Positions 30,781 through 64,000 of a stretch of DNA of 64,000 bases are shown here, piece after piece (position 1 is the stretch's first letter; every line of letters starts with the position of its first letter). The notes beneath the pieces were generated by a model. That model was not told the DNA's origin and ran no database searches. It saw nothing but the letters and a program-made list of their open reading frames with translations. This stretch comes from Letharia columbiana (lineage: Eukaryota; Ascomycota; Lecanoromycetes; Lecanorales; Parmeliaceae). The position numbers were made by a program, and so were the translations under genes. The DNA lies in assembly GCF_014066305.1 (NCBI RefSeq), contig NW_023501112.1, positions 1 through 64,000 on the forward strand, in the 5' to 3' direction.

Positions 30781-30852
30781 TTTCTCGATAGAAATAATTA
30801 CTAGTCGAAAAGATATAATATAATATAATATATTAATCTATTATATTATACT

Positions 30853-33870: not shown

Positions 33871-34724
33871 AATATTTAATTTATTAGATTATACTTAATT
33901 AAAATCTATTAAAACGCTATTATATTTAAAGATTTACTTTTAAAGTATTATATAAGATAATAAAAGTCTTTCTAATTTATTAATTTAAGAGTAAATCTTT
34001 TATTATTACGCTTTATAATTAGCTCTAATAATTTCTATTTAAATAAATATTTATCTTTATATAATATATAAAAAGCGAGTTATATTATAGAAAAAGAATT
34101 TAAATCTCGCGATTATTTTAACTAAGTTATTTAAATTAAAGATAAGAATATATTTATTTTTATATAATTTAGCTATTAAACTAGTTAATTATTATAGATA
34201 TAATTATAAGATATAATTATATATTATTAATTATTTTAATAATTATAAAAAGTATAAAAGAAATAAAATTATATAATTAAGTACTTATAAATTTTTCTCT
34301 TCTAAGTATTTATTTTAATTTAGAGTTTAATCGCTATTTAATTAAAAAAAAGATAAGATATAAAAAGTATATAAAAGTAGATTTAATAATTCTAGAATAA
34401 ATTAACGATATCTATAATAATAATTAGAATTAAAAATTAGATATACTCGAATAAGAGATAGTTTTATATTATTTATATAATAATAAAAGTAATAGTTAAA
34501 ATTAAAGTATTAACTTAAATAGCGTAGTTTTTATAATAGACTTTTTATTATTATATATTAAATTAATTATATATTAATAAAAGTTTATAATTTTATTTTT
34601 TAAATATAATTATATTTAATATTTTAAGATTTTTATAATAGCTCGATATTTATTAATTAATATATTAATATTTTTATATTTAAATTATAATAGAGCTTAT
34701 CGTTAAATTCTATATCGCGCTTTT

Positions 34725-37999: not shown

Positions 38000-40660
38000 T
38001 ATTAAAAGATTTATATCTAAATATTTATTAATTATATATTAGAATTTACTTATTTAAAATTCTAGATATAAATATTTTTACTTTTAAATAAGATAAAGAA
38101 GTTATAAATTTAAAATCGGATATTATTAAGAGTTACTTACTATTTTCTATTATATTTTAAATATTTATAATTATTAATACACTTATTAATAAGAAAAATA
38201 TACTATTATTATACGAATTTAATCGCGATATTAATAATAACTATAAGAACTAAAGCTATTAAATATAGAAATATCTATTAATAAAAAAGATATATTATTA
38301 CTATATAAATTTAATCGCGATATTAATAATAATTATTAAAATTAAAATTATTAAATATAGAGATACTCGTTAATAAGAAAGATATACTATTATTATATAA
38401 ATTTAGTCGCGATATTAATAGTAATTATAGAAATTAAAGTTATTAAATATAGAAATATTTATTAATAAGAAAAATATATTATTATTATATAAATTTAATC
38501 GCGATATTAATAGTAATTATAAAAATTAAAATTATTAAATATAGAAATACTCGCTAATAAGAAAGATATACTATTATTATATAAATTTAATCGCAATATT
38601 AATAAAAATTATAAAAATAAAAATTATCGAATATAAAAATACTCGCTAATAAGAAAGATATATTATTATTATATAAATTTAATCGCGATATTAATAATAA
38701 TTATAAAAATTAAAGCTATTAGATATAAGAATATAATCTTTAATTTAATATAGATTTTAAGATAAAAAGCCTCTTTTATTAAAGTAATAATATTTTTATA
38801 AATATATATCTATATTTAAATTAATTTAAGAAGTTTTATTTTATAAATATAAAATATATAAAGTTATTAGATTAAGTATAATAGTTAAATATTATTAATT
38901 AAATATAATAAGTAAAATAATAATTAGAATATCTTATTCTTAACTTAGAATAGTTTTTCTTTTTTTTTATATATTTTCTTTTTATAAAAACTACGTCTAA
39001 ACTTTAATAATATTATATTATTATTTATAAATTTATATTTTATTATAATTATCTAAGAAGTTATATATCTTTTAATTATAAAGTAATTCTTTTTATATAA
39101 AATATATATAATTAAATTATTAAATATTAGTTAATAATTTTTTTTTATTTATAATTATTAAAGAATAAGTTATATTATTAAAATTACTCGCTAATTTTAT
39201 CTTTATAGCTTTTTAAAGTACGTTTAATATAGAGATTTAAATTTAAAGTAAATTAATTAAATTTAAAGCTATATAAATTAAGATCTTCTTTATTATTTAA
39301 ATAAATACGATTTAAAAAATAATTAAATTTATTAATTTCTATAATTCGCGAATTTTTTTTAATATATAAACTTTAAAGTCTAATTAATAATAATATAATT
39401 AACGCGTATAATTAATTTATTATTTAATTTAAATATATATAATTAATATAATTATATAATTTTCTTATTTATAATTATACTTTTTAAAATTTATATATAA
39501 TTTTCTAATTTCTATCTTCGCGAAGTTTTATCTTTACTTCGCTTTAATAATTTAGATAAATCTAAATTAATAGTTAGTAAATTATTAAAAATTTTCTAAA
39601 TTTTCGCGATTATTAAGTTAATAACTTTAATAGATAATAATATTATATATTAATAAATTATATCTAATATTATAATTAATTATTATATTAAAAGATATAG
39701 CGCTATTAAATATATATTTACTTTATAAAAATAATATTATTAATTTAATTTAATTATAAAATATAAAGAAAATAACTTTATTTTTTTTAGATATAGATAA
39801 TATTATAATAAATAAATATATTATAATATAAATATTATAATAATAAAAAGAATTTTAAAAAAAAAAAAGAGTAAATTAGAAAAGAATAATATTAAATATT
39901 TATTATTAAATTAACTAATATTATATAATTAAAATCTTATTAAAATAAAATATTATTTAAAAATAAATTAAGTTTAAATATTAATTAGAAAGCTAACTAG
40001 AAAAAGAAGTCGACTTTTTTTATTATTAATATATATTATAAAGCTATATATAAGCGCTTTTTTCTATATTTTAAATATACTTTAAATATTTATAATTATA
40101 TATATACGTCTTCTTTTATATTTTATATATTTTAATATTCTTTATATATATAATATATCTATTAAAGATAATCTTATTAATTTAATTAATTTCTATTTAA
40201 TCTTATATTTATTAATTATAAAAAAAGCTCTTTATTTTAATATTATAATTTTATTAATTCGTTATTTTTAAATATTAGATTATTTATAATTTATAATTAA
40301 TTTATTTACTTTCTTCTTTTCTTTTACTCTAAAAATAAAAGAAGATATTATTTCTTTTTCGTCTTCGTCTATAACGAATTAATTATTATTTTTATAAGAT
40401 TAAAGATATTAATTTAAAAATAAGATCGCTTAATTAAAAGCGAAGAATATAATACTTTAATATTTTAATATTTAAATAAAAGATATTATAATATTACTTA
40501 AATAAAAGAGAATTATATTAATAAGAAAAATTTTAAAACTTAAAAATAATTTTAGTGTAGCGAAAGATTTAATTTTTATATATAAAAGATTTAGATAATA
40601 ATTAATTTAGTTAATTAAATTATTAAAGCGTTTAAGCTAGATTTTAATTCTATATTAATA
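38000..40660 (+). repeat. 2.7-kb inverted repeat, left arm
   Basis: Complement of 47092-49750 throughout, including the 92-bp minisatellite. Heavily RIPed. The match continues as far as about 40720, pairing with the sequence left of element C (44540-44592). Confidence 0.75.
38175..38730 (+). repeat. 92-bp minisatellite, six units
   Basis: A TCGCGATATTAAT core recurs at 38223, 38315, 38407, 38499, 38591 and 38683, exactly 92 bp apart. Units also share AAATTTAAT before the core and AAGAAAGATATA. A mirrored array is at 49010-49565. Confidence 0.85.
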
Positions 40661-40719
40661 TCTAATAAAATTAATTTAATAATTTTAAGATATTAATATA
40701 TATACTAGTCGAAAAATAT

Positions 40720-43700
40720 AATTTATTTTTAAAATAATTTATATTAAGTAATATTATATTATATTTAAATATAATATAAATAAAATCGAATATTATATTA
40801 TTTTTCTAGTATAAATTCGAAATTTTAATAATATATTTTACGATATAATATATCTATAAAATTATATTATAAAATAATATATATATAAAATATTTCTATT
40901 AAAATTTCTATATTTATAAAATAATTCGACTAAGATATATAGAATATATTTATTCTTCTTTATTAAGAGAGAGAAAATATAAAGAGTAATTTAATATAGT
41001 TATTTATCTTTTTATTAATAATAATAATTAAAATAATAATTAGAATTATAAGCGTCTTTATTCTTCTTTTTAAAATTATAATATAAAAGAATATTCTAAA
41101 TTCTAAATCTTTAAATATTATAAAAATAAAATTCTATAATTATCTTTATTTATATATTTATTTTAACGCGTTAAATAAGCTTAATAAACTTTATATTTAT
41201 TCTTCTCTTAAACTTTATTTTACTCTTTTATTCTACTTTATTTTAATTCTTTTAAATATCTTAAATCTATCTCTATCTAATTAAACTTATTAATTATTTA
41301 TAAATAAATTCGCTTTCTAAATTACTCTAGATCTCTTTTTTATCGAGATTAAATTTATTATTATTAACTTTCTCTAATTATAAATTCGTTAATTATTTCT
41401 TTATATATTATAAAGTATTAATAATATATTTTAATAAACTTATAAATATTAAATTTATTGAAATTTTTTTTATAAATTTATTATTTTTATTAATATAATT
41501 ATTATAATTATTAATTAAATTTTTACGTAAAATACTATTAACTCTTTTAATCTAATTTAATATATTAAAATCTTCTTTAAAATTAAATTTAAACTATTTA
41601 AACTTATTTTTATAATATTTTATATAAAGAATTATTATTAAAGTATAAAATATTATTAATAAATAATACTTTTAAATATTATAATATCTTTTAATTATTA
41701 AAAAATATCGCTTATATATAATAATCTTCGCGAGAGAATAAAGAATATTATAAGCTATTCGAGTAATTATAATATATTTAAACTTTAATTTCTTTTATTA
41801 TTTTAGAATTAAAAGATTTATTAAATTATTAAAAGAAGTTTTATAAAGATTAGAGATAAGATTATAATTAGAATAATAATTAGAAGACTTATTATTTCGT
41901 TTATATTATTAAAATTAATTATATTTATTTTTATTATCTAAATTCTTAATCTCGAATTTTATTATTTAATTAAACGTATTTTTATTTAATTAATTTATTC
42001 GCTTAGCTCTTTATAATTAATTACTTATATTAATATTTTAATAATTTTAAAATATCTTTTTAAGCGCTTTTTAGTAGATTTTTATTTATAATTTCTTTTT
42101 AATATTAATCTTTTAATTTAATTTTTTTAATTTTATATTATTATAATTTAAATATAAAAGTATAATTTATTTATATAAATAGTCTAAATTTAATTAAGTT
42201 CGATTATAATAAATAATTAATTTCTTATAAGTCGTCTTAAAAGCTTTAAAAAATTCTTTTTTTTAAAAAACTCTTTTTCTTCTTAATTTTTCGAGCTTTT
42301 TATCTATATAATGAAATAAATAATTATAAATATTAAAAACGTAATAAATTATAACCTTCTTTTTTTATTTATTAATTTTATAAATTTATAAAAAGATTTA
42401 ATAAGTTAAATTAAATATTAAATCTATTAGAAATTAATCAAAAATTATTTAGATATCTAAATTATAATTTTTATTTATAATTATTTTTTATTATTTAATC
42501 TTAAATAAATAATTAATCTATTTTTTAAAAAAGTATATAATATCGATATAAAGAAGTAAAGCGCGAATTAATATCTAATAAATTAAATTTTAATAAATTT
42601 TAATACTCTAAAAGAGCTTAAAAGAGCGTTTTTAATAATATTATTTTTTTTAAAAGATTAATATTTATCTAATATTAATATATTCTTATTTTAAAGCTAT
42701 TTAATTTATAATATAAAAAAAAAAAATTTATATTAATCGCTAATATTAATATATATAATAATTTTTTAAATCTTAATATAATTAATAATATAATAATTAG
42801 AATAATAATAAAAAATATTATATTTTTATTAGAGTTATTAATAGATTAATTATATTTATTTAAACTTAATTCTTATCTTCTTTATTACTTTAGCTTTTTT
42901 AAAATTTTTTATTTATTAAAATAATTCTAATATTATTTAGAATTTTTTTTAAGATTAATTAAATAATATATATTATATAAAAAATATATTATAAATAATT
43001 TAAGAATTTAAATTCTTTAATATTAAGCGAGTTTTTTATTATAAAAATAAAAAAATAAGTAATTAAATCGTTAAAGAATATATTATTATTACTAATATTA
43101 TTAATTATAAATTTAAATATATAAATTTAAATCTTATATTTTATAAGAATTAAATTAATAATACTTATAAGTTTTTAGCTAGTATATTTATCTTCGATAT
43201 ATTTAAAATCTATAAAAATCTTATATTATTATTAATTAATATTAATAAAAAAAATTAAAATTATTATAAATAATTAATATTAATAATTATAAAATAATTA
43301 ATAATTTAAAATTAAAGAGACTTTAATATTATTAATTAATAAATTTTTTAATAATTTTATTTTTAGCTTTATAGCTTTTTTTTATTAGCTAATTCTTTAT
43401 AATAGATATTAATATTAATTATATATTAGAGTTAAAATAATATAAGAGTTATAATATCTTAAAATTATTAATAATTATAAATAAAATATTAATATTTATA
43501 ATTTAGCGATAAAATTATTTTAAAAAGTCTTCGCGTATAAATTTTCGACTTTCTAATATTATAAGAGAATTTTAATATTTTTTTTTTTAGAGTAAATAGT
43601 AAGTTAGATATTTTATTTATTATTCTATTTATTAATAGTCTATATCGTTTAGCTTAAAAATATATCTAATTTTTATAACTATCGATTAAATTTATTTATT

Positions 43701-44540
43701 ATAAACTATTTAAATTAGATTTTTTAATATATTTCTTAGACTTAATATATACTTTTATATTATTTATTTTATAATCTATAGATAAATAAATTAAAATCTT
43801 ATTATAATAATAATAAATAATATATAATTTCTTAAAATCGATAAGCGTATATTTATTAAATTATATTTATTTCTAAGATTTTCTAATTTCTAAATCTTAA
43901 TAAATAGACTAATAATCGCTATTAAGTTTAAACTAATTCTATATAGCTTATATTATCTTTATTTATTACTACGTTTATTATTTTTTATTATTAATATTAA
44001 AAAGAAAATAAGATTTATTACTATTTTTATATTAAAATATATTTATTAATATCTTATATTAAATATCGTCGATTAAGAAAGTTAAATTTACGCTAAATAG
44101 AGATCTAGTTAATATCTTAAAATTAAGATATTTAAAAAAAAATTAAAAAAGATATATAAATAAATAAAATATTAGAAATAAAATGAAATTAATATTTAAT
44201 ATATAAATTCTATCTTCTTACTATAATAGAAACTTATATCGCTTTAATAATATATTATTATATTATTCTTAATATTTTAAATTAAAGATTAACTCTTTTT
44301 AATTAATGTTATAATTAATAATTATATATTTAAAAATATATAATAACGCTAATATAAAATTAATATTTAATTTTATTAATTTAAAACTCTAATTAGTCTA
44401 GCTATTAACGCTTCTCTATTTAATAAAATATATATTTTATTTACTTTAATATTAATATTAATTTATTATTATATTATTTTAAATATTAGAATTAAAGATT
44501 ATATCTTTTTAATTAATATTCTAATTATTAATTATATTAA
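40720..44540. other. RIPed AT-rich spacer between inverted repeats
   Basis: Extreme AT content, CA and TG nearly absent. A plus-strand stretch at about 41,200-42,300 gives a long Leu/Ile/Phe/Asn-rich frame with stops at presumptive Gln positions, possibly an old Pro/Gln-rich coding region, but nothing recognisable. No gene is called. Confidence 0.5.
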
Positions 44541-45419
44541 TAAGAGTATATATTAATATTTTAAAATTATTAAATTTATTTTATTAGATATTAACAAGTA
44601 AAGGCCTATGAATTAAATTTATAAAGTTGGATTTTTCATTTTTCTAAGTCAAATGGAATTTTAGCTGTGCATTTTTGACCTACATATAGGCACATATGTG
44701 CGAAGAGAGGCGCGCTAAGGTCTAATTAGAAAGGTATTCGATAACCTCCCACATGTAATAAATTTATTTTTCCTACTACCCCTCGTATCATCTTTACTAC
44801 TACTTTACTCCCATTATATAATCTACTATAAATAGCTTATATCTAGTCTAGAGACTATATAGCAACTACCCTATCATGAAATCGCTTCACACAGTCCCCT
44901 TTACGACATAAGATAACTTTATATACACTACACCCCCCTCAGTCCTTAGGGAAATATCACTATTACCACTAATCTCTCTATTAAAACCTCTTCTCTTAAT
45001 GTCTATGCGACATTAAATACACGTACGACTACTCTTTAAGTTCTATTAGTTATAATTATCTCGTAAATATCTTAATAGTATAATAATAGAAAGTGGAGGT
45101 AGATTTATTATATTAGATCCGGGAGGTTATCGAATATCGAGTGTAAAGGATTAATCCGTAATAATTGCCTACAAAAAACAGAGAAAGGCCATGTATGTCC
45201 TTATGGCAAGAAGTATCGAAATATCGGAAAGAAATGGAGATAACATGCTAATTAGTGGTGTGAATCCCACATTATCTCCTACCGCAGTGAAATCTTTCGA
45301 ATAATGAAATAGCTGTCAGAGCAAGATATCGGACGGTTTCAATTCGTCCAAATATGTATCGTCCGATGTTCCTCCTGCAGAGGCCCAATTGGCTGTGATC
45401 GTCGCAGTAGATCCTCCTC

Positions 45420-46400
45420 TTGTGACGTTATTGTAGTGATATACCATATTAATGTAGTGGGGATGACAGGCCAAGTTGCAGTGGTGTTCTCCGCTTACTG
45501 AGTGATGATTTGATGTGGAACCGTGGAGAGCATATGACGTGGGATCTTGGAGAGCTGAGCCGTGTTCTTGGTGCTGGGGGCCTTGTTGCCGCTTAATTTC
45601 TCCGCAGTGTTCTCTATAGTGTTCTCCGCAGTATTCTCCGCATTTGCCTGTTATAGTTCCTCCTCTTACTCCTTAATGTAGTGGGGATGACAGGCTAAGT
45701 TACAGTGGTGTTCTCCGCGCTTGCTGAGTGATGATTTAATGTGGAACCGTGGAGAGCATATGACGTGGGATCTTGGAGAGCTGAGCCGTGTTCTTGGTGC
45801 TGGGGGCCTTGTTACCGCTTGATTTCTCCGCAGTGTTCTCCGCATTTGCCTGTTGTAGTTTCTCCTCTTGCTTTACCTCTTGTAGAGTATTAGACTGAGT
45901 GGCTAGCTAAGTAGCTAACTGAGTGAATAACTGATATAACGTAGGATCTTGGAGAGCTGAGCCGTGTTCTTAACGATGGTAGCCTTATTACCGCTTAGTT
46001 TCTCCGCAGTATTCTTCGCATTTACCTATTATAGTTCCTCCTCTTACTCCTTAATATAGTGGGGATAACAGGTTAAGTTATAGTAGTGTTCTCCGCTTAC
46101 TAAGTAATGATTTGATATAAAACAGCCAAGTTGCAGTGATGTTCTCCGCTTGCTAAGTAATAACTTGATATGGAACCGTGGAGAGTATATGACGTGGGAT
46201 CTTAGAGAGCTGAGTCGTATTCTTGACGATGATAGCCTTGTTGCCGCTTGGTTTCTCCGTAGTATTCTCCGCATTTGCCTATTATAGTTCCTTCTCTTAC
46301 TTCTTAATGTAGTAGGGATAATAGGTTAAGTTATAGTAGTATTCTTCGCTTATTAAGTAATAATTTAATATGGAATCGTAGAGAGTATATAACGTCTAAA
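45420..46400. repeat. Tandem roughly 0.2-kb units in element C
   Basis: Four or five imperfect units carry GTGGAACCGTGGAGAGCATA, GACGTGGGATCTTGGAGAGC, TTTCTCCGCAGTGTTCTCC and GTAGTTCCTCCTCTTACTCC. The distal units are progressively RIPed (TTAATATGGAATCGTAGAG). The minus-strand frame 46044-46274 merely crosses a unit and recurs in element E. Confidence 0.8.
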
Positions 46401-46663
46401 CGCGTTTGATATAATTATAATATTTGAATATTAGTTTAACTTACTTATCGCTAACTTAAGAGAAGTATATAGAGGAGAACATATTCGTTCGAGCTCTTTT
46501 TAAGGGTTTTTTAACGCGTTTATAAGTAGTAGTAGATAGCTATTAAGCTCGCTTACGGTCTCGATTACTAGTAATAGCGAATTCGCCGAGAAGTAGCTTA
46601 GAAGCGTTAGTAAGGGGCTCTAATTGGACGAGGGGTACTGAAGATGATTATATTTATATTGGT

Positions 46664-46715
46664 GGAATTAATAGAATTAATAGAATTAATAGAATTAATA
46701 GAATTAATAGAATAG
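46664..46715. repeat. 9-bp microsatellite (RIPed)
   Basis: About five copies of TAGAATTAA, the RIPed form of TAGAATTGG seen in element E. Confidence 0.8.
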
Positions 46716-47091
46716 TAAAAGAATAACAAATAGATGAAAGGATTATTATTCGATCTCGGACGCGTCTGGTGTAACTACTATAACTATTATATTTAAATGT
46801 TTATTTAATTTACTAATAATAAGCTAAACTTTATAATTTTTACAGCGTTAGAAAGCGTAAAGCGAGCTCTATAATTTGAGGAATTATAAAGAAATAGCAT
46901 TCGTAGAGAGCTAGTTATTTCAGAGGATAAGACTTCTATATATAGATTTTTAATAAGGGAGACGCGGGAGGGCTATCGGGCTGACTTAGTCGGTCTAATT
47001 AAAAAGCGTATAGAATCCGAATTTATAATTGGCTGCATATATAAATTCAAGGTTTTTAAGCTTAGCTCTATCTTATTCTATTATATATACT

Positions 47092-49750
47092 AATATAGAA
47101 TTAAAATTTAATTTAAATACTTTAATAATTTAATTAGTTAGATTAATTATTATTTAAATCTTTTATATATAAAAATTAAATCTTTTATTATATTAAGATT
47201 ATTTTTAAATTTTAAAATCTTTCTTATTAATATAAAATTTTTTTCTTTAAGTAATATTATAATATTTTTTATTTAAATATTAAAATATTAAAATATTATA
47301 TTCTTTACTTTTAATTAGATAATTTTATCTTTAAATTAATATCTTTAATCTTATAAAAATAATAATTAATTTATTATAGATAAAGATAAAAAAAGAATAA
47401 TATCTTCTTCTATTTTTATGATGGAAAAAAAGAAGAGAGTAAATAAATTAATTATAAGCTATAAACGACTTAATATTTAAGAATAATAAATTAATAAAAT
47501 TATAATATTAAAATAAAGAGCTTTTCTTATAATTAATAAATATAAAATTAATTAAAAATTAATTAAATTAATAAGATTATTTTTAATAGATATATTATAT
47601 ATATAAAGAATATTAAAATATATAAAATATAAAAGAGAATATATATATATAGCTATAAATATTTAAAGTATATTTAAAATATAAAAAAAGCGCTTATATA
47701 TAGCTCTACGATATATATTAATAAAAAAGAAATTAATCTCTTTTTCTAATTAATTTTCTAATTAATATTTAAATTTAATTTATTTTTAAATAGTATTTTA
47801 TTCTAATAATATTTTAATTATATAATATTAATTAACTTAATAATAAATATTTAATATTATTCTTTTTTAATTTATTCTCTTTTTTTTAAAAATTCTTTTT
47901 ATTATTATAATATTTATATTATAATATACTTATTTATTATAATATTATCTATATCTAAAAAAAATAAAATTATTTTTTCTATATTCTATAATTAAATTAA
48001 ATTAATAATATTATTTCTATAAAATAAATATATATTTAATAATACTATATTTTTTAATATAATAATAAATTATAATATTAATTATAATTTATTAATATAT
48101 AATATTATTATCTATTAAAGTTATTAACTTAATAATTATAATAATTTAAGAAATTCTTAATAATTTATTAATTACTAATTTAAATTTATTTAAATTATTA
48201 AAGTAAAATAAAGATAAAATTTTATAAAGATAAAAATTAGAAGATTATATATAAAGTTTAAAAAGTATAATTATAAATAAAAAAAGTATATAATTATATT
48301 AATTATATATATTTAAATTAAATAATAAATTAATTATACGCGTTAATTATATTATTATTAATTAAACTTTAAAATTTATATATTAAAAAAATCTATAAAT
48401 TATAAAGATTAATAAATTTAATTATTTTTTAAATTATATTTATTTAAATAATAAAAAAGATCTTAATTTATATAACTTTAAATTTAATTAATTTATTTCG
48501 AATTTATATTTTTATATTAAACGTACTTTAAAAAGCTATAAAGATAAAATTAATAAGCGATTTTAATAATATAACTTACTTTTTAATAATTATAAATAAA
48601 AAAAATTATTAATTAATATCTAGCGACTTAATTATATATATTTTATATAAAAAGAATAATTTTATAATTAAAAAATATATAGTTTCTTAGATAATTATAA
48701 TAAGATATAAATTTATAAATAATAATATAATATTATTAAAGTCTAGATATAGTTTTTATAAAAAGAAAATATATAATAAATAAAAGAAAAACTATTCTAA
48801 GTTAAGAATAAGATATTCTAATTATTATTTTATTTATTACGCTTAATTAATAAGATTTAGCTATTATACTTAATTTAATAACTTTATATATTTTATATTT
48901 ATAAAATAAAACTTTTTAAATCGATTTAAATATAAATATATATTTATAAAAATACTATTACTCTAATAAAAGAGACTTCTTATTCTAAAATCTATATTAA
49001 ATTAAAGATTATATTTCTATATTCGATAGCTTTAATTTCTATAATTACTATTAATATCGTAATTAAATTCGTATAATAATAATACGTCTTTCTTATTAGC
49101 GAATATTTTTATATTTAATAGTTTTAATTTCTATAATTACTATTAATATCGCGATTAAATTTATATAATAATAGTATATCTTTCTTATTAACGAGTATTC
49201 TTATATTTAATAACTTTAGTTTTTATAATTACTATTAATATTATAATTAAATTTATATAATAATAATACGTCTTTTTTATTAGCGAGTATCTTTATATTT
49301 AATAGCTTTAATTTCTATAATTATTATTAATATCGCGACTAAATTTATATAGTAATAATATATCTTTCTTATTAATAGATATCTCTATATTCGATAACTT
49401 TAATTTCTATAATTATTATTAATATCGCGATTAAATTTATATAATAATAATATATCTTTCTTATTAGCGAGTATTTCTATATTTAATAATTTTAATTCTT
49501 ATAATTATTATTAATATCGCGATTAAATTTATATAGTAATAGTATATCTTTCTTATTAACGAGTATATTAATAATCGTAAATAGCTAAAATATAATAGAA
49601 AATAGTAAGTAATTCTTAATAATATTTAATTCTAAATCTATAATTTCTTTATCTTATCTAAAAATAAAGATATTTATATCTAGAATTTAAAGTAAGTATA
49701 TTTTAATATATAGTTATTAAATATCTAGATATAAATCTTCTAGCTAAAAA
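47092..49750 (-). repeat. 2.7-kb inverted repeat, right arm
   Basis: Inverted partner of 38000-40660. Element C (44593-47090) separates its innermost 50 bp from the rest. Heavily RIPed with no recognised ORF. Confidence 0.75.
49010..49565 (-). repeat. 92-bp minisatellite, six units, inverted
   Basis: The complementary core ATATCGCGATTAAATT recurs with 92-bp spacing from 49058 to 49518. Same unit number as the left array. Confidence 0.85.
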
Positions 49751-49779
49751 ATTAGTTTTTTAAAATTAACTAGTATAAT

Positions 49780-50400
49780 TATAATAATAATTAAAAGTAT
49801 AATAATTATATTATATAGCGTAATTTAATAAATTAAATTCGATAGATTTCGCTAGTATAATATTAAATAGATTTTAAAATATTAAAGCTATAAGTAGAAA
49901 TTCTCTCTTTTTTTCTTTCTTAATATCTTAAATATTTTCTCTTATTAATATTTTATATTATAATTATTTTATCTTATTTATCTTAATCTAATTTAATAAT
50001 AATATATTATCGATAATTATTAATTTCGATAGCGATTTTATTATATTATTATTATATAGAGATAGCGACGTCGATTTATATACTTTATCGATTTATTTAA
50101 AAGATAATATAAATTTTAATAATCTTCTTAACGATATAAATAATTAGCGGGATAATCGCTTATTTAATCTTTATATTAAGACTTTAAATTAAAAGAAAAT
50201 CTTAAAATCTTCTAGCCGTAAAAAGATAATTATAAAAAAAATCGAATAAAATAAGTTTTTAATTATTCGCGCTTTCGATATAAAGATCGCTAAAAAAAAT
50301 ATTTCAAGGTCTTTACTTATAAAGATTAAAAATTAATATTAAAAATAAGAAAGTAAGTATAGTAATATAATATTTTACTAAGTAATATATATATATAATT
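49780..50400 (+). pseudogene. RIPed coding stretch upstream of the H3-like domain
   Basis: At 50061-50330 a plus-strand frame reads DSDVDLYTLSIYLKDN, then SSSRKKIIIKKIE and similar Lys-rich text, broken mainly by Gln/Trp-derived stops. It is one base out of frame with the H3-like segment, so they are joined by a frameshift, an intron or not at all. The Lys/Ser-rich part could be a basic N-terminal tail. No family recognised. Confidence 0.35.
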
Positions 50401-50409
50401 AATAATAAT

Positions 50410-50733
50410 TTAGCTATTACTTTATAAGAGATTAAAAGATATTAGAAATTAACTAATTTACTTCTTTTAAAAAGATCTTTTATTTATATAATATAAGAGA
50501 TTATTAATATAATATTATTATCTTATTATACTATATAAATTTAGATTTTTATATTAAATATATTATAAGAAGCTATCGAAGTAGCTCTAATATCGAAATT
50601 TTATTATATATTAACTTTCTATTAAGTTATTATTCTATTAATAAATTATATAATTAATAATCTCTACGCTATTTATAGTAAAAGAGTTATATTAATAATT
50701 AAAGATATAAAGCTTATATAAATAATATATTAA
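50410..50733 (+). pseudogene. Histone H3-fold domain remnant (H3/CENP-A-like)
   Basis: Plus-strand frame with positional matches to the H3 histone fold. The alphaN region reads EIKRY, stop, KLTNLL (H3: REIRRYQKSTELL), then KRSFIYII, stop, EI (H3: LPFQRLVREI). Helix 2 reads L, stop, EAIEVALISKF (H3: LQEASEAYLVSLF), followed after 19 residues by NLYAIYSKRV (H3: NLCAIHAKRV) and KDIKL (H3: KDIQL). Every stop sits where H3 has Arg, Gln or another RIP-convertible codon, and Tyr replaces Cys/His by C-to-T or G-to-A. Helix 2 and loop 2 are separated by about 16 extra residues (48 nt), an insertion or a RIPed minimal intron. Loop 1 seems about three residues longer than in canonical H3, as in CENP-A, but the identity is undecided. 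It is non-functional. Confidence 0.72.
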
Positions 50734-50954
50734 TATATAATAGAAGAAAGTATATAAAAAATAAAAATAAGATAATTAAAAGTGCTTTACTTAAATAGAA
50801 AAGAGTTAAAATACTTAATATAAAATAGAATTAAAATTATCTTTCTAATTATCTAAAAATATATAAATTTATTATTTTAATAACGGTCTCTTTATATCTT
50901 CTTTATTAATAAAAACTTCTTATTTAAATAAATATATAGCTAATAATTTTAATA

Positions 50955-51060
50955 CGAAAAATAAAATCTTAAATTCTTAAACTTTAAAGTATTATAAATT
51001 AAATAATAATTATAAATAATCTTAATATAAACTAGATTAAAAGTAAGAATTTAAATATAA
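50955..51060 (+). repeat. Direct repeat within RIPed coding remnant, copy 1
   Basis: Resembles 51620-51725; both share TAAATAATAATTATAAA and end AAAGTAAGAATTTA or near it. In a plus-strand frame both read as similar peptides, so this may be a coding repeat or duplicated gene segment. Confidence 0.5.
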
Positions 51061-52735
51061 TCTCTATTATTAATAAGAAGATTATTAAAAAAGAGATAGT
51101 ATTTAATATTAATCTATATTTTCGAATATATAAATAGAATATAGTTAAACTATAAAACGCGCTTATAAATTAAATAAGAATTCGAATAATTTATAAATAT
51201 AAATTTTTTCTACGAAAGCTTATTAAGATAATCTATAAGAGTATAAAATTTCTATTATCTCTATATTCTTATATCGTTAATAGCTTTATTTATAAAAGTA
51301 TTTAATAAAATAAAAATATTAATTCGATTAAAGACTTAATTAATAAATTTTTTTTTCTAATTTATAAAAGTATACTTAAAATCTAACTAAACGCTAAAAA
51401 TTAGAAATTTATACTTAATTACTATAAAGTATTATTCTAGCTCTATATAAAATCTAAGATTTAAGATTTAAATTATAGAATCGATTACGTCTATTACGCG
51501 TATAAAATAAAAGAGAAATATTAAATATAAATAAGTAAAGAAATACTTAAGACGTAATAATAATTATTTTAATAAAGAGTCTTAAGTAATAATACTAATT
51601 ACGTATATATATCGAAAATATAAAATAAGATCTTAAATTTTTAGATCTTATAATATTATAAGTTAAATAATAATTATAAACGAATTTAATATAAATTAAA
51701 TTAGAAGTAAGAATTTAATATAATAGCGAAAGTTTAAGATATTATTTATAAGATTAAAGAAGAAAAAGTTAAAAAATTAGAAAAGAAAGATAAGAGTAAA
51801 TTTAATAGAAATACTAAAATTAATAAGAAGAAAGATTTAAAGAGAATAAAACGTATATCTAATAAATATAAATATCTAAGATATAAATCTTAATCGAGAA
51901 GTACTATTTATTTCTAGATATACTTATAAATAGAAAGTACTTATCGTATAAAAAAGATATTATAATTAAAAAAAAAAATATCTTAAAATCGACTATAACT
52001 CTTAATAGAAATATTAAAGAGACTTATAAGATAGATAGTGTAAATAATAGAAAACTTAAGAGTATAAAATTATCGCTTTATTATTATTAAGTATAAGAAA
52101 TAACTTTTATAAAGAATTAAGATATCGATAATAAAGAGTTATTAAATAATATATTAATAAATCTACTATCTTTTAATTATTTTAAAAAAAATTTATAGAC
52201 TCTAAGAATTAGCGTTTAATATAAGAGAAAAGAATTTATAATATAAAATTCTAAATATTTTTCTAATTAATAAATAGCGAAATCTATTATAATCTCTTCT
52301 TTTAAGCTCTTATATTTAAATATTTATATCTTAATAATAAAAATAAAAAGCGATTTAAAATCTTACTATTATAATTATTAATTATTATTTAAAAGATCTC
52401 TTTTATCTTATCGTTATCTTTATTTAATTTTTATTTATTTAATATATAGTTATAATTCTTTAATTACTATTTAGTCGAGTTTAATAAATCTAGAAAATTA
52501 TTATTATTTATATTAAACTATATCTATAAATCTAAAAAGTTTCTTTTCGTACGATTTTCGTCGAGTTTATACTATAAGTACGATTTAGTTTATTTAGTAG
52601 ACTTTATTTATATTTAACTCTTTTCGCCGATTTAGTAACTATCTTAATCCTTTCCGCCAGTTCTATTAGTTTAATAACTTTAAAAACTTTTAGTAACTTA
52701 AAATTTTTTACGTAATATACTCTAATATACTCTAA
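51060..52735. other. RIPed AT-rich DNA downstream of the H3-like remnant
   Basis: Several Lys- and Ile-rich frames on the plus strand, all with RIP-type stops; possibly the remaining coding part of the unit that carries the H3-like domain. No motif recognised. AT bias alone generates such frames, so no gene is called. Confidence 0.4.
51620..51725 (+). repeat. Direct repeat within RIPed coding remnant, copy 2
   Basis: Partner of 50955-51060, 665 bp downstream. Followed by a Lys-rich stretch (about 51,740-51,870, KEEKVKKLEKKDKSK). Confidence 0.5.
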
Positions 52736-52737
52736 GT

Positions 52738-55700
52738 ACTATTCTATATATATATAGTATTAATATATATTATTATTAATATACGTATTATTATACGCTA
52801 TACTAGAGTATTATCTATACGACTAATTTTATTAAATCGTCTAATTTCGTAGTTAAATTTAAGTTAACGTTAATACTTATCGTTATAGAATCTTATCGTT
52901 ATAACGTCGATTATTAGAACTTTTCTTTTTTTATATATATTACTATTAAACTAATAGAACTAATAGAAAAGATTAAAATAGTTACTAAATTAACGAAATT
53001 TAAATAAATTCTAATTAGATTTACTAATTCGATAGAATTTAGACGAATTCTAATTAGATTTACTAATTCGATAAATTTTATAATTTTCGCGATATACGCG
53101 CGATTAGCAATTTTAAAATTTATAGAAACTTTTTAGATTTGCAGATATATTATATTACTAAATTCCTTTATATTATATACTCGATCTTATTAAAATAAAT
53201 ATATAAAGATAATAAGTCGAGTTTTAATTAATTAGTCTAGATAATTTTTAGTATACTTTTATTAAAGAGAGAGTAATAAATAAAAAGAGTATTTACTATA
53301 AAATCCGTTTATATATAATTATATATTTTTTTAATCTAAAAATTATAAATTAATAATTTTATATATGTAAGAAATAATAATAGTATATCTTATAATCGAT
53401 TTTAGAAGAATAATCCTATATCGTAAAACCTCTATATTTATATTTTTTAATCGTATAATAAGGTTTATAATCGTAAGAGCTAATATACGTTATTTTCGCT
53501 TATAAAGATTAATAAATCCTCTATTAAAACTTTTAAATTATTATAAAAATAAGAAATAATCTTTATTTATGAGATTACTTAATTATATTAAATAATCTAA
53601 TTAATAACTTTAAGTTATTATCTAATAATATACTTATCTCTTATTCTTTCTCTTTTTTTATTTATCTTAAAATTATAAGATAGATAAAATTATTTAATAT
53701 TTTCTTTTTATTAAATCTTCTTATTATAAAGTTATACTCTTATTATTATTAATAATACTTTTTTATTTTTAATTATTTAGACTTAATTATATAGCTAATA
53801 TAGATATATATTTTCTCTTTAAAATATTAAATAAAAAAATTATATATATTAATATCTAATAATATTACGATATAATCGATCTTATTATTTATAGAAATAT
53901 ATATCTTTAATCTCTTATAATATCTTTTTCTACTTCTCTAAACTTATACTTTTAAATCTATTTATATTTCTAACTTTATCTCTTATAATTAATATTATAT
54001 TAAGATTAATAAATAAAGATTTATAAATTAAATTCATAGAGTTGGATTTTTCTAAGTTAAATAAAGTTGGATTTTTTTAAGTTAAATAAAATTTTAGCCC
54101 TAGCCCTAAGTCAAATCGAACTCTAATCGCTTGCTATGCGTTTTTAACCTACTTTCACTACTATAAAATTAATTTAATCTATATAGTATATAGGCATATA
54201 TATACGAAGAGAGGCGCGCTAAGGCCTAATTAGAAAGGTATAATAATTACTTATAAAAAAGGAAAGTAATATACGTACACCCCCTTTTTATATATATATA
54301 CCCTCTTTTAATATATATATACCCCTCTAAATTCGATTAGCTTCCGCGCGATCGCTAGTCGTATAAGATATAAACCTCGCATATAGCTTTCTAAGGAATA
54401 TTGTCGAGACTCTTAATAATAGTAAGATAAGTTTTTCTAGATTTTTTCTAATAAAGTCTAAAAGATTAGACGATTTTAAATCGTCGAATAATAAGATTTT
54501 TAAATTATTCTTTTATAGCGATAGCTAATTAACTAACTACCCTCTCTTATTACTATTAAAAATACGTCTATTATACTTAAATATTTACTATCTATTAACT
54601 ATCTATTCTTTCTATAGCTAAAAAGACATAATCTCATTACCCTATATATAGGCTAGCGTACTATATTTACCTCGCTATCCGTCTTATATAATTCTACCTC
54701 TTATAGCCTCGTCTTACTATCCGCCTCGTATAGCCAGCTATATACGAAGTTTATACTTTATACGACTAGCGGCCGCGCGGAAGCTAATCGAATTTAAAGG
54801 AGGTATATATATATTAAAAGAGGATATATATATATAAAAAGGAGGTGTACGTGTATAAAAAGGGGGTATACGTATATCACTTCCCTTTTTTATAAGTAAT
54901 TATTATATCTTTCTAATTAGGCCTTAGCGCGCCTCTCTCCGCACATATATATCTATATACTATATAGATTAAATTAATTTCGTAGTAATAAAAGTAGATC
55001 AAAAACGTATAGTAAGCGATTAGAGTTCGATTTGTACTTAGGGCTAGGGCTAAAATTTCATTTAACTTAAAAAAATTCAACTTCATTTAACTTAGAAAAA
55101 TTCAACTCCATAAATTTAATTTATAGATCTTTACTTATTAATCTTAATATAATATTAATTATAAGAGATAAAGTTAAAAATATAAATAGATTTAAAAGTA
55201 TAAGTTTAGAGAAGTAGAAAAAGATATTATAAGAGATTAAAGATATATATTTCTATAAATAATAAGATCGATTATATCGTAATATTATTAGATATTAATA
55301 TATATAATTTTTTTATTTAATATTTTAAAGAGAAAATATATATCTATATTAGCTATATAATTAAATCTAAATAATTAAAAATAAAAAAGTATTATTAATA
55401 ATAATAAGAGTATAACTTCGTAATAAGAAAATTTAATAAAAAAGGAAATATTAAATAATTCTATCTATCTTATAATTTTAAAATAAATAAAAAAAGAGAA
55501 AGAATAAGAGATAAGTATATTATTAGATAATAACTCGAAGTTATTAATTAGATTATTTAATATAATTAAGTAATCTTATAAATAAAGATTATTTTTTATT
55601 TTTATAATAATTTAAAAGTTTTAATAAAGGGTTTATTAATCTTTATAAGCGAAAATAATATATATTAACTTTTATGATTATAAATTTTATTATATAATTA

Positions 55701-56900: not shown

Positions 56901-57069
56901 CCATAAAAAATAGAGAAAGGCTATGTCTTTATGGTAAGAAGTATCGAAATATCGGAAAGAAATGAAGACAACGTGCTAATTAGTGGTGTGAATCCCACAA
57001 TATCTCCTACCGCAGTGAAATTTTTCGAATAATGAAATAGCTATAAACATCGGACGGTTTCAATTCGTC

Positions 57070-57835: not shown

Positions 57836-57876
57836 AACTGAGTGCGAGGGTACCGAGGGTAAATGTGTTCATATTG

Positions 57877-58655: not shown

Positions 58656-59405
58656 TAATATTATATACTTTTTATAAGCGAGCTTTAAGTAGATTATATA
58701 CTTCGAGAGTTATTATATATTAATAAAATTTAATAATATAAGAATTCTATAAAAGCTCTTCTATCGCTTTATATTTATAATTTTTAATATTAATTAAATA
58801 ACTATAAAATCTTAATAGCGATAAAAATAAGAAGAATTTTATTAAAAGACTATTATCGCGAAGTATTTACTAAAGATTATTTATATTATCTACTTCTATA
58901 TATATAATTAAAATTATAAATTTAATTTTACTTTATAATAATAAAGAATCTTATCTTTCTCTTTTAATAATAGATTATTTATAATTCTATTATTATTTAT
59001 CTTCTTACTATATAAAATTACTATTATATTAATTTTATAATATATATATTTACTAAATCTATAAACGATAGTATTTAAAAGATATTCTATAAAAAGAAAA
59101 TAGAATATAACTTCTAAATATCTTTCTAATTATCTTTCTAATTATTATAATATTATAATAAATAAAAGAGAAAAAGAAAAAAAGAAAGAAGTAATATATA
59201 AAAAGCTTATTATTCTTATTTTAATTTATAACGCTCGCGTAAAACTTAAGATAATAATTAATATTATAAAATTATAAGATTTTTAAATAAAGAAGAATAA
59301 AATAGATATAATAAAAAACTTAAAGAAGAATTTAAGTTTAAATCTAAAGAAAAGTTCGCGAGTTTAATTATACGCTAATAAGTTAATTAGTAATTAATAA
59401 TTAAT
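58656..59405. other. RIPed AT-rich DNA, no gene seen
   Basis: CA and TG nearly absent; no motif or repeat recognised apart from A/T runs. Confidence 0.5.
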
Positions 59406-59409
59406 TCTA

Positions 59410-59880
59410 TTAATATATATAATAGAATAAAATAGAGCTAAATTTAAAAATCTTAAATTTATATATATAATTAATAATAAATTTAGAGTTACTACGCTTT
59501 TTAATTAGATTAATTAAATTATTATAAGTAAATAAATTAATATTTATAATTATAAAAAAAATATAACTAAATAATCTTAATTAAAAAATAAATATATATT
59601 ATTTAATTTTAGAATAACTTTTTATTTTCTATTAAAATTTTAAGATTTTTTTTTCAAATTATAAAACGAAATAAGAATTTTTAAATAAAAAAAGAATTTC
59701 TAAATTTAGTCTAATAATTATTAAAGCGTAAGAAATTTAAATATCGCTTATTAAAGTTCGCTCGATAGTTAAATAGCTCGCTTATTAAAATTTACTTATT
59801 AAAGATTATTTATCTATTTACTAGATAATTCTAATTAAAAAAAAAATTATAAATTTAATTTATAAATCTTTACTTATAAA
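59410..59880 (-). repeat. 0.4-kb dispersed repeat, heavily RIPed copy
   Basis: Same orientation and layout as 13660-14080: TATATATAATAGAATAAA at one end, AATTTATAAATCTTTACTTA at the other, and TATCGCTTATTAAAGTTCGC inside. Nearly all C and G in CA/TG context are converted. Confidence 0.75.
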
Positions 59881-59949
59881 AAATATAATATCTTATAGAT
59901 TTTAATAGAATCTTTTATTTTTTAAGATAATAATAGAAATCTATTATTA

Positions 59950-60172
59950 AATATAATACTTATTAATTAAATAAGAAAATAAGATATTTAAACTATATTT
60001 ATAATACTTATAATTTTATAATAATAGTTTTTTTTTATAATTTAATAGAATATAATTTTTAATATAGATATAATTTTTTAAAAGTATAAATTAAATATTT
60101 TATATAGTATTAATTATAAAGATAATTAGAATTCTAAATTAAATATAAATCTAAAATTAATATAATAAATAA
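59950..60172. repeat. Dispersed direct repeat, copy 1
   Basis: Resembles 61950-62155 and, more loosely, 62240-62395; all share a TATAATATTAATTATAAAGATAATTA-like tract (19-20 bp identical stretches). The pogo relic lies between copies 1 and 2. Confidence 0.5.
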
Positions 60173-60779
60173 ATTTCTTATAATCGTATGAGAATACGTC
60201 TATACTTAGTATAGGCTATCTCAACGAACGCTAAGACCGCCTTAATACGAATTTTTTCAATTATTTTATCTATTTATCTATATATATATATATTATAAAC
60301 TATTATTATCTATTTTAGTCTCTTTAATTCTTTTAATCTTAGTTAACTATCTAGCTCTTATTATAGTAATCTTAAATTACTTAATCTTCTTATTTCTAAG
60401 TATATTATATATCTAAGACTCTTTAATATTTATCTACTTTAAAGTCTTTAAAGATTTTTTAATCTTCGTTTTCTTATATATAATAATCTTATTTCGAGCT
60501 TAATAAGAGTAGATAATATCTTTCTTCTATATTATAATATTAGATTCTACTTTTCGAGTTACTCGAGCTACTATAATTTATTAAATAGTATTTAATTCTC
60601 GCTTAACGAGAAGATTTAAAAGTATCTTCGCTTCTACTCTATAAATATATCTATTAAGCGACTAATCGATTAAATATATATTTCGTAGTTTCTTTTTATA
60701 CTATATAACTTAATAATAAATATATAATATTAGCTAGTCTTTAAGATCGAATATCTCTTACTCTAGAGTCTTATCTCTT

Positions 60780-61930
60780 AGCGAAAAGTCTCTCCGCTAA
60801 AATCTAATTAAATAATTTAAAATAATAGTAGAATTATAGAAAAAAAGGCTTATTTCTCGCTATTTAAATATAATAGTTAATCTAGTAAAGATTCGATTAT
60901 AAATTACTTAAAAATTAGTTAAAAAATCGAGTTTTAAATAATTATCGCTAGCTTAACGTATTACGATATTAATTATCTTAATATACTAATATTTAAATAA
61001 CTAAAAGACATCTATATTTAATAACTAATATAGATATAAAAAGTATAAAAGTAAATAGAATAGAATAATATTATTATTCTCTATATATTTAAGTACTTCT
61101 CTAGTAAGATAATTACTATAGCTATCAAATAGTAATAATCTATATATTTCTATACGTCTTCTCTTCGTAAAATAATTAAAATGCTTAATTCAGGCCTTAT
61201 ATAGATTATCGTTTACGTATTCGATATTATTAATATTCTATAGAGTATCGAGATTAAGACTCTCTTAAAATTAATTATCTAGATATTATTTTTTAACTAA
61301 AATTAATATCGGGGGAAGCGTATAATCTAAGCTACTAATATACTTAATTAATATAATATACTCTCTATTATCCGCATTCGTTTAATAAAGTAAAAGTTCT
61401 CTTTCTTTTATAATAATTCATTAACTCTTACTTACTCTAATTCGAAATTCAGTCTTATTAAAATTATAGATATTCTTTATTTATACTTTAAACTCTTAAT
61501 AAATACTCTAAAAACGTTAAAATTAGTTCTAAATAGCTTCTAATTTATATATATTCTTTCGTTAAGCTATAAGAGACTTTTATTTACGTATTTTATATTA
61601 AGAATTACGCTTTAAAAATCGCGTGAATTAATAATTACCTACGTACTTAATAGAACTAAAGCGCTCGCGAAGTATAGAGTTTATAGCTCTTTTAAGTATC
61701 GAACGACGATAAGATATTCTTAATTTATCGAGTCGTTATATATATTAATAAAGAGTCTATTCTTTATAATCTATAAGCGCGTAAGAGTAATTATCTTTAG
61801 AGGAAATTCTATTATAGCGATTTAGAAGCTAATTATAAGATATATTAAATTTAATAGTTAATCGAATAACTTTAAACTTTATTTCGAGAATAATAGTAAT
61901 TAAAGTCTTCTAAATACGTTTCTAAATAAC
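60780..61930 (-). pseudogene. Fot1/pogo-type (Tc1-mariner) transposase relic
   Basis: Minus-strand frame with family landmarks: NIYNFNKTEFRIRVSKS near 61480-61430 (family: DIYNMDETGFRxGxG), IKHFNYFTKRRRIEIYRLLL near 61190-61130, then FDSYSNYLTREVL (family LDGHGSHLT, catalytic Asp present) and IENNNIILFYLLLY (family CLPPHTSHLLQPLD). Asp and Glu to Asn and Lys changes and TAA/TAG at Gln positions are RIP-type. The N-terminal DNA-binding region lies toward 61900 but is unclear. No terminal inverted repeats found. Non-functional. Confidence 0.8.
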
Positions 61931-61949
61931 GATATATAAGTTAGATATA

Positions 61950-62155
61950 ATATAATATTTATTAATTAAATAAGTAAGTATAATAAATATATTTCTCTAT
62001 TAAAATTATTATTATAATATAAATAATTTTATAATAATAACTTATTTTAATTTTTTAATATAATATAATTTTTTAGAATTATAAATTAATAATTTTATAT
62101 AATATTAATTATAAAGATAATTAAAATTCTAAATTAAGAATTAATATAATAATTA
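61950..62155. repeat. Dispersed direct repeat, copy 2
   Basis: Second copy of 59950-60172, immediately upstream (in transposase terms) of the pogo relic. Confidence 0.5.
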
Positions 62156-62239
62156 AATATATATAAACTTTAATAAAAATTTTTATTTTTTAAAATAAAT
62201 AATAAAAATTTATAAAAATATATAATTATTAATAATTAG

Positions 62240-62395
62240 ATAAGAAAATATAATATATATTTATATTAAAACTATAATTATAATATAAATAATTTTATAA
62301 TAATAAAAAATATTAATTCTTTAATATAATATAAATCTTTTAAATTATAAATTAAATATATTATATAATATTAATTTGAAGTAAAATATATTTTT
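62240..62395. repeat. Dispersed direct repeat, copy 3 (partial)
   Basis: Shares ATAATATAAATAATTTTATA with copy 2; the first part is missing. Confidence 0.45.
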
Positions 62396-63719
62396 ATAAA
62401 TAATATAATAATTAAAGATTATATTATAAGTTAAGAAAATTAATAATTTAATTATAAAGTTTTTTATTCTATTATTTATAATAGTTTAATAATCTATCTA
62501 AATTAAACTATAAGCTTTTAATCTATCTTTATATTTATATATAATTTAATATTATATAATTTTAGAAATCTATATAAAAGTTATATATTCTTAATCTATA
62601 ATATTACGCGTTTATTATAAATTATTAATAATTAAGAATCTATATTCTATTATTAATAATTTATATATAAAAATAATAAAAAGTCTTATTTTAAAGATTA
62701 TTAGATAGAAAAGATTTTATCGCTTTCTATATCGCTTTAATAATAAAATATTATTAATAATACTTAATATTATTTCTAATTTTATTTATTATATCTAATA
62801 AATTTTCTTAAATAAATTTTTAAAATAAAGCTTTTAAAATTAATAATATAATTAATTTTTAAAAATATTTAATTTCGTAAAGAATAATAGCTAGTAGATT
62901 ATAATTAGAAAAATAATTAGAAATATATATAAAATTAAATTTATTATTTAAGTAATATCTTTATATATTTTTTATTTTAAATATATATCTAATAGCACTT
63001 TTTCTCTTATTTATACTCTTCTCGCTTATAATAAATTTTCTAAAAATCTTATTACTCGATTTTCTAGCTGCTTTTACTATTAATAATATTCAAAATATTC
63101 TTTTATCTATCGCGATCGCTATAGAAAATATACTAGATTTCCTCTTTCTAAGTTTCTTATTATATTTATTCTTTTTTAATAATTTATTTATAGATAGATA
63201 TTTTTTAACTACTACAATTTTAATATTTTCGCTATATATATTATTAAAATTTCTATTTTTATAAATAATATCTTAAGCTTAAAAGATAATCTAATCTTAA
63301 AATAAAATTACGTTATTATCGCTAAATATATTATTATTAAATATATATATTAACTCTTTATTCTTATTAATAACGTATTTATAAGTTTATCTAATTTAGA
63401 AAGTTAGATAATTATAATAATAATTAGAAAAGAGAAGATTATATTTAAACTCTCTTTTATTATAATAATTAAAATTATAAAAATTATTTCTTCTTCTTCT
63501 AGTCGTACTAATTACTTATATATTAAAATTAATAAACTTATATAAATTTATTATAAAACTTATCGCTAGATTATAATATTATTATTTTTATTATATATTA
63601 TAAATTTCTAATCTCGAGCTTCTTTTATAATAAAGTCTATCTCTTCTTCTTCTAATATAATTAAATTTATTAACGAATTACTCTTTAAATCTACTATCTA
63701 ACTACTTTTAAAACTTTAT
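62396..63719. other. RIPed AT-rich DNA, no gene seen
   Basis: No credible frame or recognised motif on either strand. Confidence 0.5.
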
Positions 63720-63911
63720 AATTAATTACTTCTAGAATTTTCTAATTAATTATCTTTAGAACTTTCTAATTAATTACTTTTAAAACTTTTTAATTAATTA
63801 TCTCTAGAACTTTCTAATTAATTACTTTAAGAACTTTCTAATTAAATATCTTCAAAACTTTCTAATTAATTATTTTTAAAACTTTTTAATTTATTACTTT
63901 TAAAATCTTCT
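63720..63911. repeat. 24-bp minisatellite, eight units
   Basis: Eight successive 24-bp units close to AATTAATTAYTTTTARAACT plus TTCT. Variation between units is mostly transitions plus a few others. Confidence 0.85.
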
Positions 63912-64000
63912 AGCTAATTTAATATTTCTTTATTATTAAGAAATTAAATAGCTAGTTAAGAATTTATTAATAAAGATTTATAAATAGAAGTATTTATATT

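Follow-up and report, generated by a model that had tools for sequence, protein, structure and literature searches.

RIP-killed genes for histone H3-like proteins have been found in hAT transposons of six Mycosphaerellaceae: Pseudocercospora fijiensis, P. musae, P. eumusae, Cercospora zeae-maydis, Sphaerulina musiva, and S. populicola (Dhillon et al. 2019, PMC6710886). In P. fijiensis there are 784 RIPed H3-like copies, one or two in each 9.5-9.9-kb element, and one of the two H3-like copies carries a 16-residue insertion (PMC6710886). In the account given by Dhillon et al., host introns are reported to be absent, the gene is read as a captured transcript, and its capture is dated to about 100 million years in the six species (PMC6710886). 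A hAT transposon with an H3-like gene (H3L) is also described from Pyrenophora tritici-repentis, in 5.6- and 2.3-kb forms with one H3L per element; its copies are near-identical, ESTs are present, and H3L was assigned to neither the H3 nor the CenH3 group (Manning et al. 2013, PMC3538342). This transposon is said to have undergone little RIP and to lack similarity to the Mycosphaerellaceae elements (PMC6710886). Among the literature matches listed, taken by title and abstract, no other relevant report of a transposon-encoded histone was found.

The window analyzed here (64,000 nucleotides of Letharia columbiana, positions 1 to 64,000 of contig NW_023501112.1) contains an H3-like frame at 50410-50733. 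An earlier, sequence-only reading of this DNA considered that a transposon encoding a histone-fold protein would be unusual, which is true, but the H3-like genes of fungal hAT elements had already been published (PMC3538342, PMC6710886). Compared by description only, the element around the frame is most likely of the family described by Dhillon et al. or close kin to it, because the insertion length and the RIPed context match closely. The two share the 16-residue insertion, a high number of RIPed copies lying in AT-rich DNA (784 versus at least 40 here), short terminal inverted repeats (TIRs), 8-bp target site duplications (TSDs), and an intact host H3 elsewhere. However, the described element is 9.5-9.9 kb with one or two H3-like copies, whereas the one here is 19,929 bp with four genes; the former has a DUF659 transposase domain, and none was detected in the latter; and the former was read as a captured transcript, while shared introns and evidence of constraint are seen here (PMC6710886). 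The hAT element of P. tritici-repentis is also a DNA transposon whose H3-like gene is divergent, but it has one H3L per element, near-identical copies, and ESTs, in contrast to the four RIPed genes here (PMC3538342). New with respect to PMC6710886, as far as its description of the element extends, are the four genes, two shared introns at positions where host H3 and CENP-A have none, and the constraint.

The H3-like frame, its introns, and RIP

The frame at 50410-50733 reads as the sequence-only reading had quoted it. Unmended and with stops entered as X, it matches solved histone chains in phmmer, the best being a chain named 'Histone domain-containing protein' (E 6.7e-5) and the next H3.2 (E 1.1e-4). 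A Pfam hmmscan of the same read-through gave no match, probably because an intron and RIP split the frame. Against host H3 the frame scores 15.3 bits, while the maximum among 40 dinucleotide shuffles of window 36001-64000 is 5.7. The proposed H3 histone fold from alphaN to alpha3 is therefore real, and shuffled RIPed DNA does not reach its score. Here and below, copies were read and scored as they stand, unmended, in place of a de-RIPed consensus.

Within this gene, designated g1, the fold is interrupted by an intron (intron B). The sequence-only reading had proposed a helix-2/loop-2 insertion of about 16 residues; the DNA does hold 16 extra codons, but these make up an intron of 48 nt and add nothing to the protein. 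Once spliced, g1 of a complete element copy on contig C5 reads F-HLS-NLYAIYSKR where H3 reads F-EDT-NLCAIHAKR, the exact H3 length, and it matches histone H3 in the PDB unmended (best E 4.2e-14) and Pfam PF00125 at 1.8e-6 (28.6 bits, cut-off 26.4). Intron B is 48 nt in all 33 g1 copies, with the donor G left in 9 of them (A in the rest) and the acceptor G in 8; in the g1 of the window both end Gs have mutated to A. Exon lengths of 192 and 77 nt are kept in 33/33 copies, although in one of them (L008) exon 2 contains a frameshift that is compensated. In the other three genes of the element (see below) intron B is 50, 55, or 56 nt; as these lengths are not multiples of three, those stretches cannot be coding insertions, and a coding 16-residue insertion was rejected.

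A second intron (intron A) precedes the fold, with a donor G in 32/33 copies and an acceptor G in 32/33. The Lys-rich coding stretch previously noticed upstream reads as an upstream exon that this intron splits off, and in a profile of g1 (A1, with hand-typed rows) the tail and the fold align to H3 residues 4-130. Upstream of the folds of both g1 and g2, less mutated copies contain H3-tail-like motifs of the ARKS type. Loop 1 of g1 is slightly long, as had been observed, with 10 codons; host H3 has 7 and host CENP-A 11. In public databases, 101 of 1390 candidate relatives of g1 pass E 1e-5.

The RIP signature of 50410-50733 is extreme, with TA/AT of 1.20 and (CA+TG)/(AC+GT) of 0.00; the corresponding indices in a gene-bearing island (window 4900-12000) are 0.74 and 1.20. 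An 803-column alignment of 33 copies, the window included, has 243 segregating columns (minor base in at least two copies), of which 233 show transitions only and 10 include a transversion. Both results bear out the earlier view that the frame has been RIPed. The associated view that the gene is multicopy also holds: a search of the 52.2-Mb assembly with window 49600-51000 gave 357 first-look places, and all 40 that were scored, the window included, match over 1.2-1.4 kb at 86-100% identity, so that at least 40 copies exist. No intact H3-like copy was found among the copies read, and stops interrupt each of the three element copies matched by the Pfam histone profile.

The element and its four H3-like genes

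A complete element copy on contig C5 is 19,929 bp long and ends in identical 24-nt terminal inverted repeats (TACTAGCCGAAAAGGTATAATATA, in inverted orientation). The 8-bp TSD, ATTATAAA, is the same on both sides (8/8 bases). A copy on contig C38 ends like that on C5 and is flanked by ACTATGAT and ACTATAAT (7/8 bases, with one transition). These two copies were read end to end in addition to the window, and the match extents of others were used as well. As the sequence-only reading had suggested, the gene is carried by a mobile element whose copies share termini, here with TSDs in C5 and C38. Short TIRs and, in 2/2 copies with both ends read, an 8-bp TSD are features of hAT elements; a typical hAT end, CA/TAGGG, was not seen at the C5 termini. 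A hAT-like assignment is thus supported, membership referring to the target-site length and the short inverted repeats only. A six-frame Pfam scan of the C5 copy found no hAT transposase, and genome-wide matches to PF05699 (five) and PF04937 (one) all lie outside the element copies of mapped position. The frames of C5, C38, and the window score at best 2.6 bits (phmmer) against an apparently intact hAT protein from C79. RIP erosion could hide the transposase of the element. At the C79 locus (L060, C79:54500-58000), a frame of 750 aa runs without interruption and includes DUF659 and hAT dimerization domains, apparently an intact hAT transposase in an otherwise heavily RIPed genome.

The window holds one element copy that starts at 40703 and continues rightward beyond the window end, and a second, reversed and rearranged, at about 30799-40700 (Table 1). 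A 92-bp tandem array of about six copies in the window lies in each (38186-38744 and 49012-49573), and its length appears to vary by element copy, from about 650 bp in C5 to about 270 bp in C38. In the interrupted right part of the element there is an inverted repeat of about 1.65 kb (52735-54388 and 54736-56415, 93% identical). On the plus strand of the C5 element, between g2 and g3 at about 13.2-15.6 kb (L055:1-6000), a period-3 G+C signal accompanies a possible basic, Lys-rich frame, which gave no Pfam match and may be a further element gene.

Table 1. Positions of element parts, H3-like folds, and introns in the window
Feature	Position	Strand	Remarks
TIR at end of reversed second element copy	30799..30822	+	
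g3 fold, in second, reversed and rearranged element copy	33804..34123	+	intron B 33991-34046 (56 nt); 54/77
Partial second g3 copy, duplication inside reversed element	37214..37740	+	75% DNA match to g3; direct repeat 32158-33944 / 35969-37740
g4 of second, reversed element copy	39043..39368	-	55/77; intron 56 nt, 1 nt longer than in other g4 copies read
Left TIR of element holding g4, g1, g2	40703..40726	+	matches C5 terminus TACTAGCCGAAAAGGTATAATATA, altered by transitions and by what appears to be a 1-nt deletion
Element body, left arm	40703..44594	+	aligned to C5 and C38 copies
Later insertion(s) interrupting element	44595..47074	.	bridged in C5 and C38 copies; match ends of other copies
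Element body with g4, 92-bp tandem array (49012-49573), g1	47075..52530	+	
g4 fold	48376..48700	+	intron B 48569-48623 (55 nt); 53/77
g1 upstream Lys/Arg-rich exon, H3-tail-like	about 50193..50352	+	frame in window, C5, and C38 copies
g1 intron A	50353..50413	+	61 nt, phase 1 in T codon of 'GTVALREI'; GTAAGT...TTTAG
g1 histone fold, alphaN to alpha3	50416..50730	+	exons 50414-50605 and 50654-50730; 56/77 H3 residues compatible (RIP-aware scan)
g1 intron B	50606..50653	+	48 nt, phase 1 in D codon of H3 'FEDTN'
Other interruptions of element	52531-53147, 54012-58657, 60183-61896		
Element body fragment	53148..54011	+	
Element body fragment	58658..60182	+	
Element body with g2 (minus strand)	61897..64000	+	matches run past window end to at least C77:70000
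g2 fold	62563..62888	-	intron B 62640-62689 (50 nt); 54/77

The element carries four H3-like genes, of which the sequence-only reading had seen one. When the C5 and C38 copies were searched with host H3 (phmmer), further H3-like stretches appeared on both strands. A RIP-aware scan then covered the whole C5 element on both strands, counting for 77 residues whether each codon could have encoded the H3 residue before C-to-T and G-to-A change; loop 1 was allowed 5-13 codons and the intron 40-70 nt, and splice signals were unused. Four loci emerged, with 56 (g1, plus strand), 52 (g4, plus), 58 (g2, minus), and 54 (g3, minus) of 77 residues compatible. All other entries among the top 12 positions on each strand are these same loci in shifted register (36-45 of 77), and the maximum in 30 dinucleotide shuffles was 37. 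The window itself has five recognizable folds and one partial fold: g4, g1, and g2 of one element copy, and g4, g3, and the partial g3 of the other.

Both introns recur in all four genes. The scan alone chose intron B lengths of 48 (g1), 50 (g2), 55 (g4), and 56 nt (g3), at the same place in each. In C5 and C38, the ends of this intron are GT...AG, or have one end G changed to A, in every gene; in more mutated copies, the g1 and the second g4 of the window, both end Gs are A. For g2, g3, and g4 alone, the intact ends would arise by chance with a probability of about 2e-7, dinucleotide frequencies being taken as independent. For g4, the donor G is left in 1 of 21 aligned copies. Intron A was placed by eye; g1, g2, and g4 agree in its position and phase, and so does g3 if CTATAG is taken as the acceptor. 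Of the two AGs available in g2 and in g3, the second was chosen, being the only one that keeps the frame.

Each of the four genes is of the H3 type, the mark of which is an H3-specific alphaN (VALREIRRYQKST) and alpha2-loop2-alpha3 stretch (NLCAIHAKRVTI.KDI.L) around one histone fold. Spliced but unmended, C5 g2 matches PDB H3 at E 1.1e-10; a g4 profile from the C5 and C38 copies matches it at 8.4e-12; and a g3 profile from the same two copies matches an H3.1/CENP-A chimera best (1.1e-14), with plain H3 at 2.5e-13. PF00125 scores g2 at 0.025, below the cut-off, and does not list g3 or g4 at E 1. Residues that are H3-compatible in 4/4 genes include L109, A111, H113, K115, R116, V117, T118, K122, D123, and L126, which presumably, on the H3 numbering assumed here, have a role in the H3-H3' bundle. 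The frames of C5, C38, and the window gave no H4, H2A, or H2B match at E 1; the 7.5 bits reached once for H2B (E 3.6) were taken as chance. In public databases, g4 has no relatives among 59 candidates at E 0.01, and 2 of 384 candidates passed for g2, both of them short metagenome proteins (P0103 and P0104, ENA). These two look like read-through RIPed relatives of g2, with intron A still readable in frame, and kin of the element thus seem to exist in other samples.

Constraint, descent, and possible role

RIP makes transitions only, and purine/pyrimidine (R/Y) differences between the genes are therefore untouched by it. Over the six pairs of element genes (79 aligned codons each; g1, g2, and g4 from C5, g3 from C38), R/Y mismatches number 131, 66, and 180 of 474 at codon positions 1, 2, and 3, respectively. 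The third-position excess is found in every pair (p at most 0.03, permutation within codons). With all four genes taken from C38, the counts are 128, 66, and 176; the order 2 < 1 < 3 has a single exception, the g1-g4 pair (23, 10, 23), in which positions 1 and 3 tie. Because dead cargo would show equal counts at the three positions, this pattern points to protein constraint on g1-g4. Protein similarity served as the anchor of the codon alignments, however, and such anchoring lends positions 1 and 2 some advantage. Some of the constraint could also date from before capture, should more than one host gene have been taken up.

The host has an intact H3 on C25 (L031), with 61% G+C in the matched part. 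Neither this gene nor host CENP-A (L032, L034) has an intron at the position of intron A or B. Intron 2 of host H3 lies one codon upstream of intron A, where host CENP-A has no intron, and intron 3 of host H3 (after AKR) is absent from g1-g4. The element genes are not canonical host-type H3: before allowing for RIP, g1 is identical to host H3 at 38/80 residues, loop 1 has 9-13 codons versus 7, and the introns are at other positions. By phmmer, the scores for host H3 and for the best sibling in the element are 58.3 and 43.5 bits (g1), 45.4 and 35.4 (g2), 45.4 and 42.5 (g3), and 44.8 and 47.0 (g4), with RIP damage on both sides lowering the sibling scores. Three of the four genes thus score host H3 above their best sibling, and the argument for a single descent inside the element is therefore that of the shared introns. 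The genes are best called divergent H3 variants, which may belong to either the H3 or the CENP-A branch.

Several other explanations were weighed. That the H3-like frame is a chance product of AT-rich DNA, in whose translations I, K, L, N, and Y are favored, is hardly credible, and it was rejected after both shuffle tests had been exceeded (5.7 versus 15.3 bits; 37 versus 52-58 of 77 in the RIP-aware scan). Segmental duplication of the host H3 gene, followed by RIP, would fit the action of RIP on duplicates and the similarity to H3, but is very improbable, since the introns of the intact host gene are at other places, g1 shares 38/80 residues with it, the 40 scored copies share the same 1.4 kb, and the fully read copies share element ends. 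A duplicate of the host H3 was rejected on these grounds, in keeping with the earlier preference for a mobile element over a host gene. The published interpretation of the P. fijiensis copies, in which an H3 transcript or retrocopy, captured by a hAT transposon, was multiplied as cargo without a function and then RIPed, and a chance mutation produced the 16 residues, is unlikely here. It has on its side the 784 RIPed copies at one or two per element, without host introns and one with the insertion (PMC6710886), and also the absence of host H3 intron 3 from g1-g4. It does not account for two introns common to four genes, one of them at lengths that cannot be coding, for transversions that follow codon position, or for 33 g1 copies that keep their exon lengths with one compensated frameshift.

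Descent of g1-g4 from CENP-A (CenH3), so that the element carried centromeric-type histones, is quite unlikely, and the evidence on it is divided. Like fungal CENP-A, the genes have a longer loop 1 (10 codons in g1, with 11 in CENP-A and 7 in H3), and g1 has an LLLLK motif. The top relatives of g1 include H3-like proteins of Pleosporales, one of them named centromeric by its source (P0015, Alternaria conjuncta); other Pleosporales relatives are presumably CENP-A as well, judging from features assumed to be diagnostic (24 of the 101 sequences examined). By phmmer, g1 and g2 score host CENP-A 1.3 and 2.4 bits above host H3, but g3 and g4 score host H3 3.8 and 4.9 bits above host CENP-A. PDB CENP-A (cnp1) is near the top for g2 (1.7e-10) and g4 (5.2e-11), and the H3/CENP-A chimera is the first match of g3; yet profiles A1 and A2 reach canonical H3 chains, tail included. 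The residues of 79 that are RIP-compatible with H3 and CENP-A are 56 and 58 in g1, 58 and 52 in g2, 55 and 52 in g3, and 52 and 50 in g4, favoring H3 in three genes and CENP-A by two residues in g1. Unlike CENP-A, moreover, g1-g4 have I or Y in place of the RWQ tryptophan, and intron A lies one codon from an intron of host H3 at a place where host CENP-A has none.

The explanation judged best, and probable, is that 50410-50733 represents exons 2 and 3 of one of four paralogous H3-like genes in a hAT-like transposon of about 20 kb, since inactivated by RIP, whose genes were under constraint and whose proteins may have acted as H3 variants. The ancestor would be an H3 gene that was captured with introns or gained them later; it would have been duplicated inside the element, the four copies diverging under protein-level constraint, and the element would have multiplied in the fungal genome before its inactivation by RIP. 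To the four folds, shared introns, transversion pattern, and element ends observed in this analysis, the explanation adds that the living transposon would have made the H3-like proteins and that these would have entered nucleosomes as H3 variants. Given the H3-H3' interface residues compatible with H3 in all four genes and the tail-like motifs of g1 and g2, the proteins could have joined nucleosomes. Replacement of host H3 on or near the element might then have interfered with host silencing that depends on the H3 tail, or made transposition easier. The former is the preferred role, albeit one rated well short of even; chief among the alternatives is that the proteins had a structural part in transposition.

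A wider proposal is offered only tentatively: the transposon would encode its own four diverged H3 variants, spliced, selected while it was active, and replacing host H3 so that it might escape H3-tail-dependent silencing and RIP or organize transposition, and the published 'captured housekeeping gene' of six Mycosphaerellaceae would be a family of transposon genes that had been misread. Histone H3 marks are the means by which transposons are policed. If the proposal is true, an element with several constrained H3 variants of its own would strike directly, at the molecular level, at this policing, and such elements would be a new source of histone variants. The published dead captured transcript with a random 16-residue insertion would then look like a spliced, multi-gene transposon family, which is testable in named, sequenced fungi.

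Elsewhere in the window, 4729-8348 is a GC-rich island in RIPed DNA where an MmgE/PrpD-type fragment (PF03972, E 1.3e-22) adjoins a citrate-synthase-type gene (PF00285, E 4e-53); their neighbor at 7458-8348 (minus strand) had no Pfam match at E 0.001. The pairing of PrpD with citrate synthase presumably recalls the alkylcitrate/maleidride pathways.
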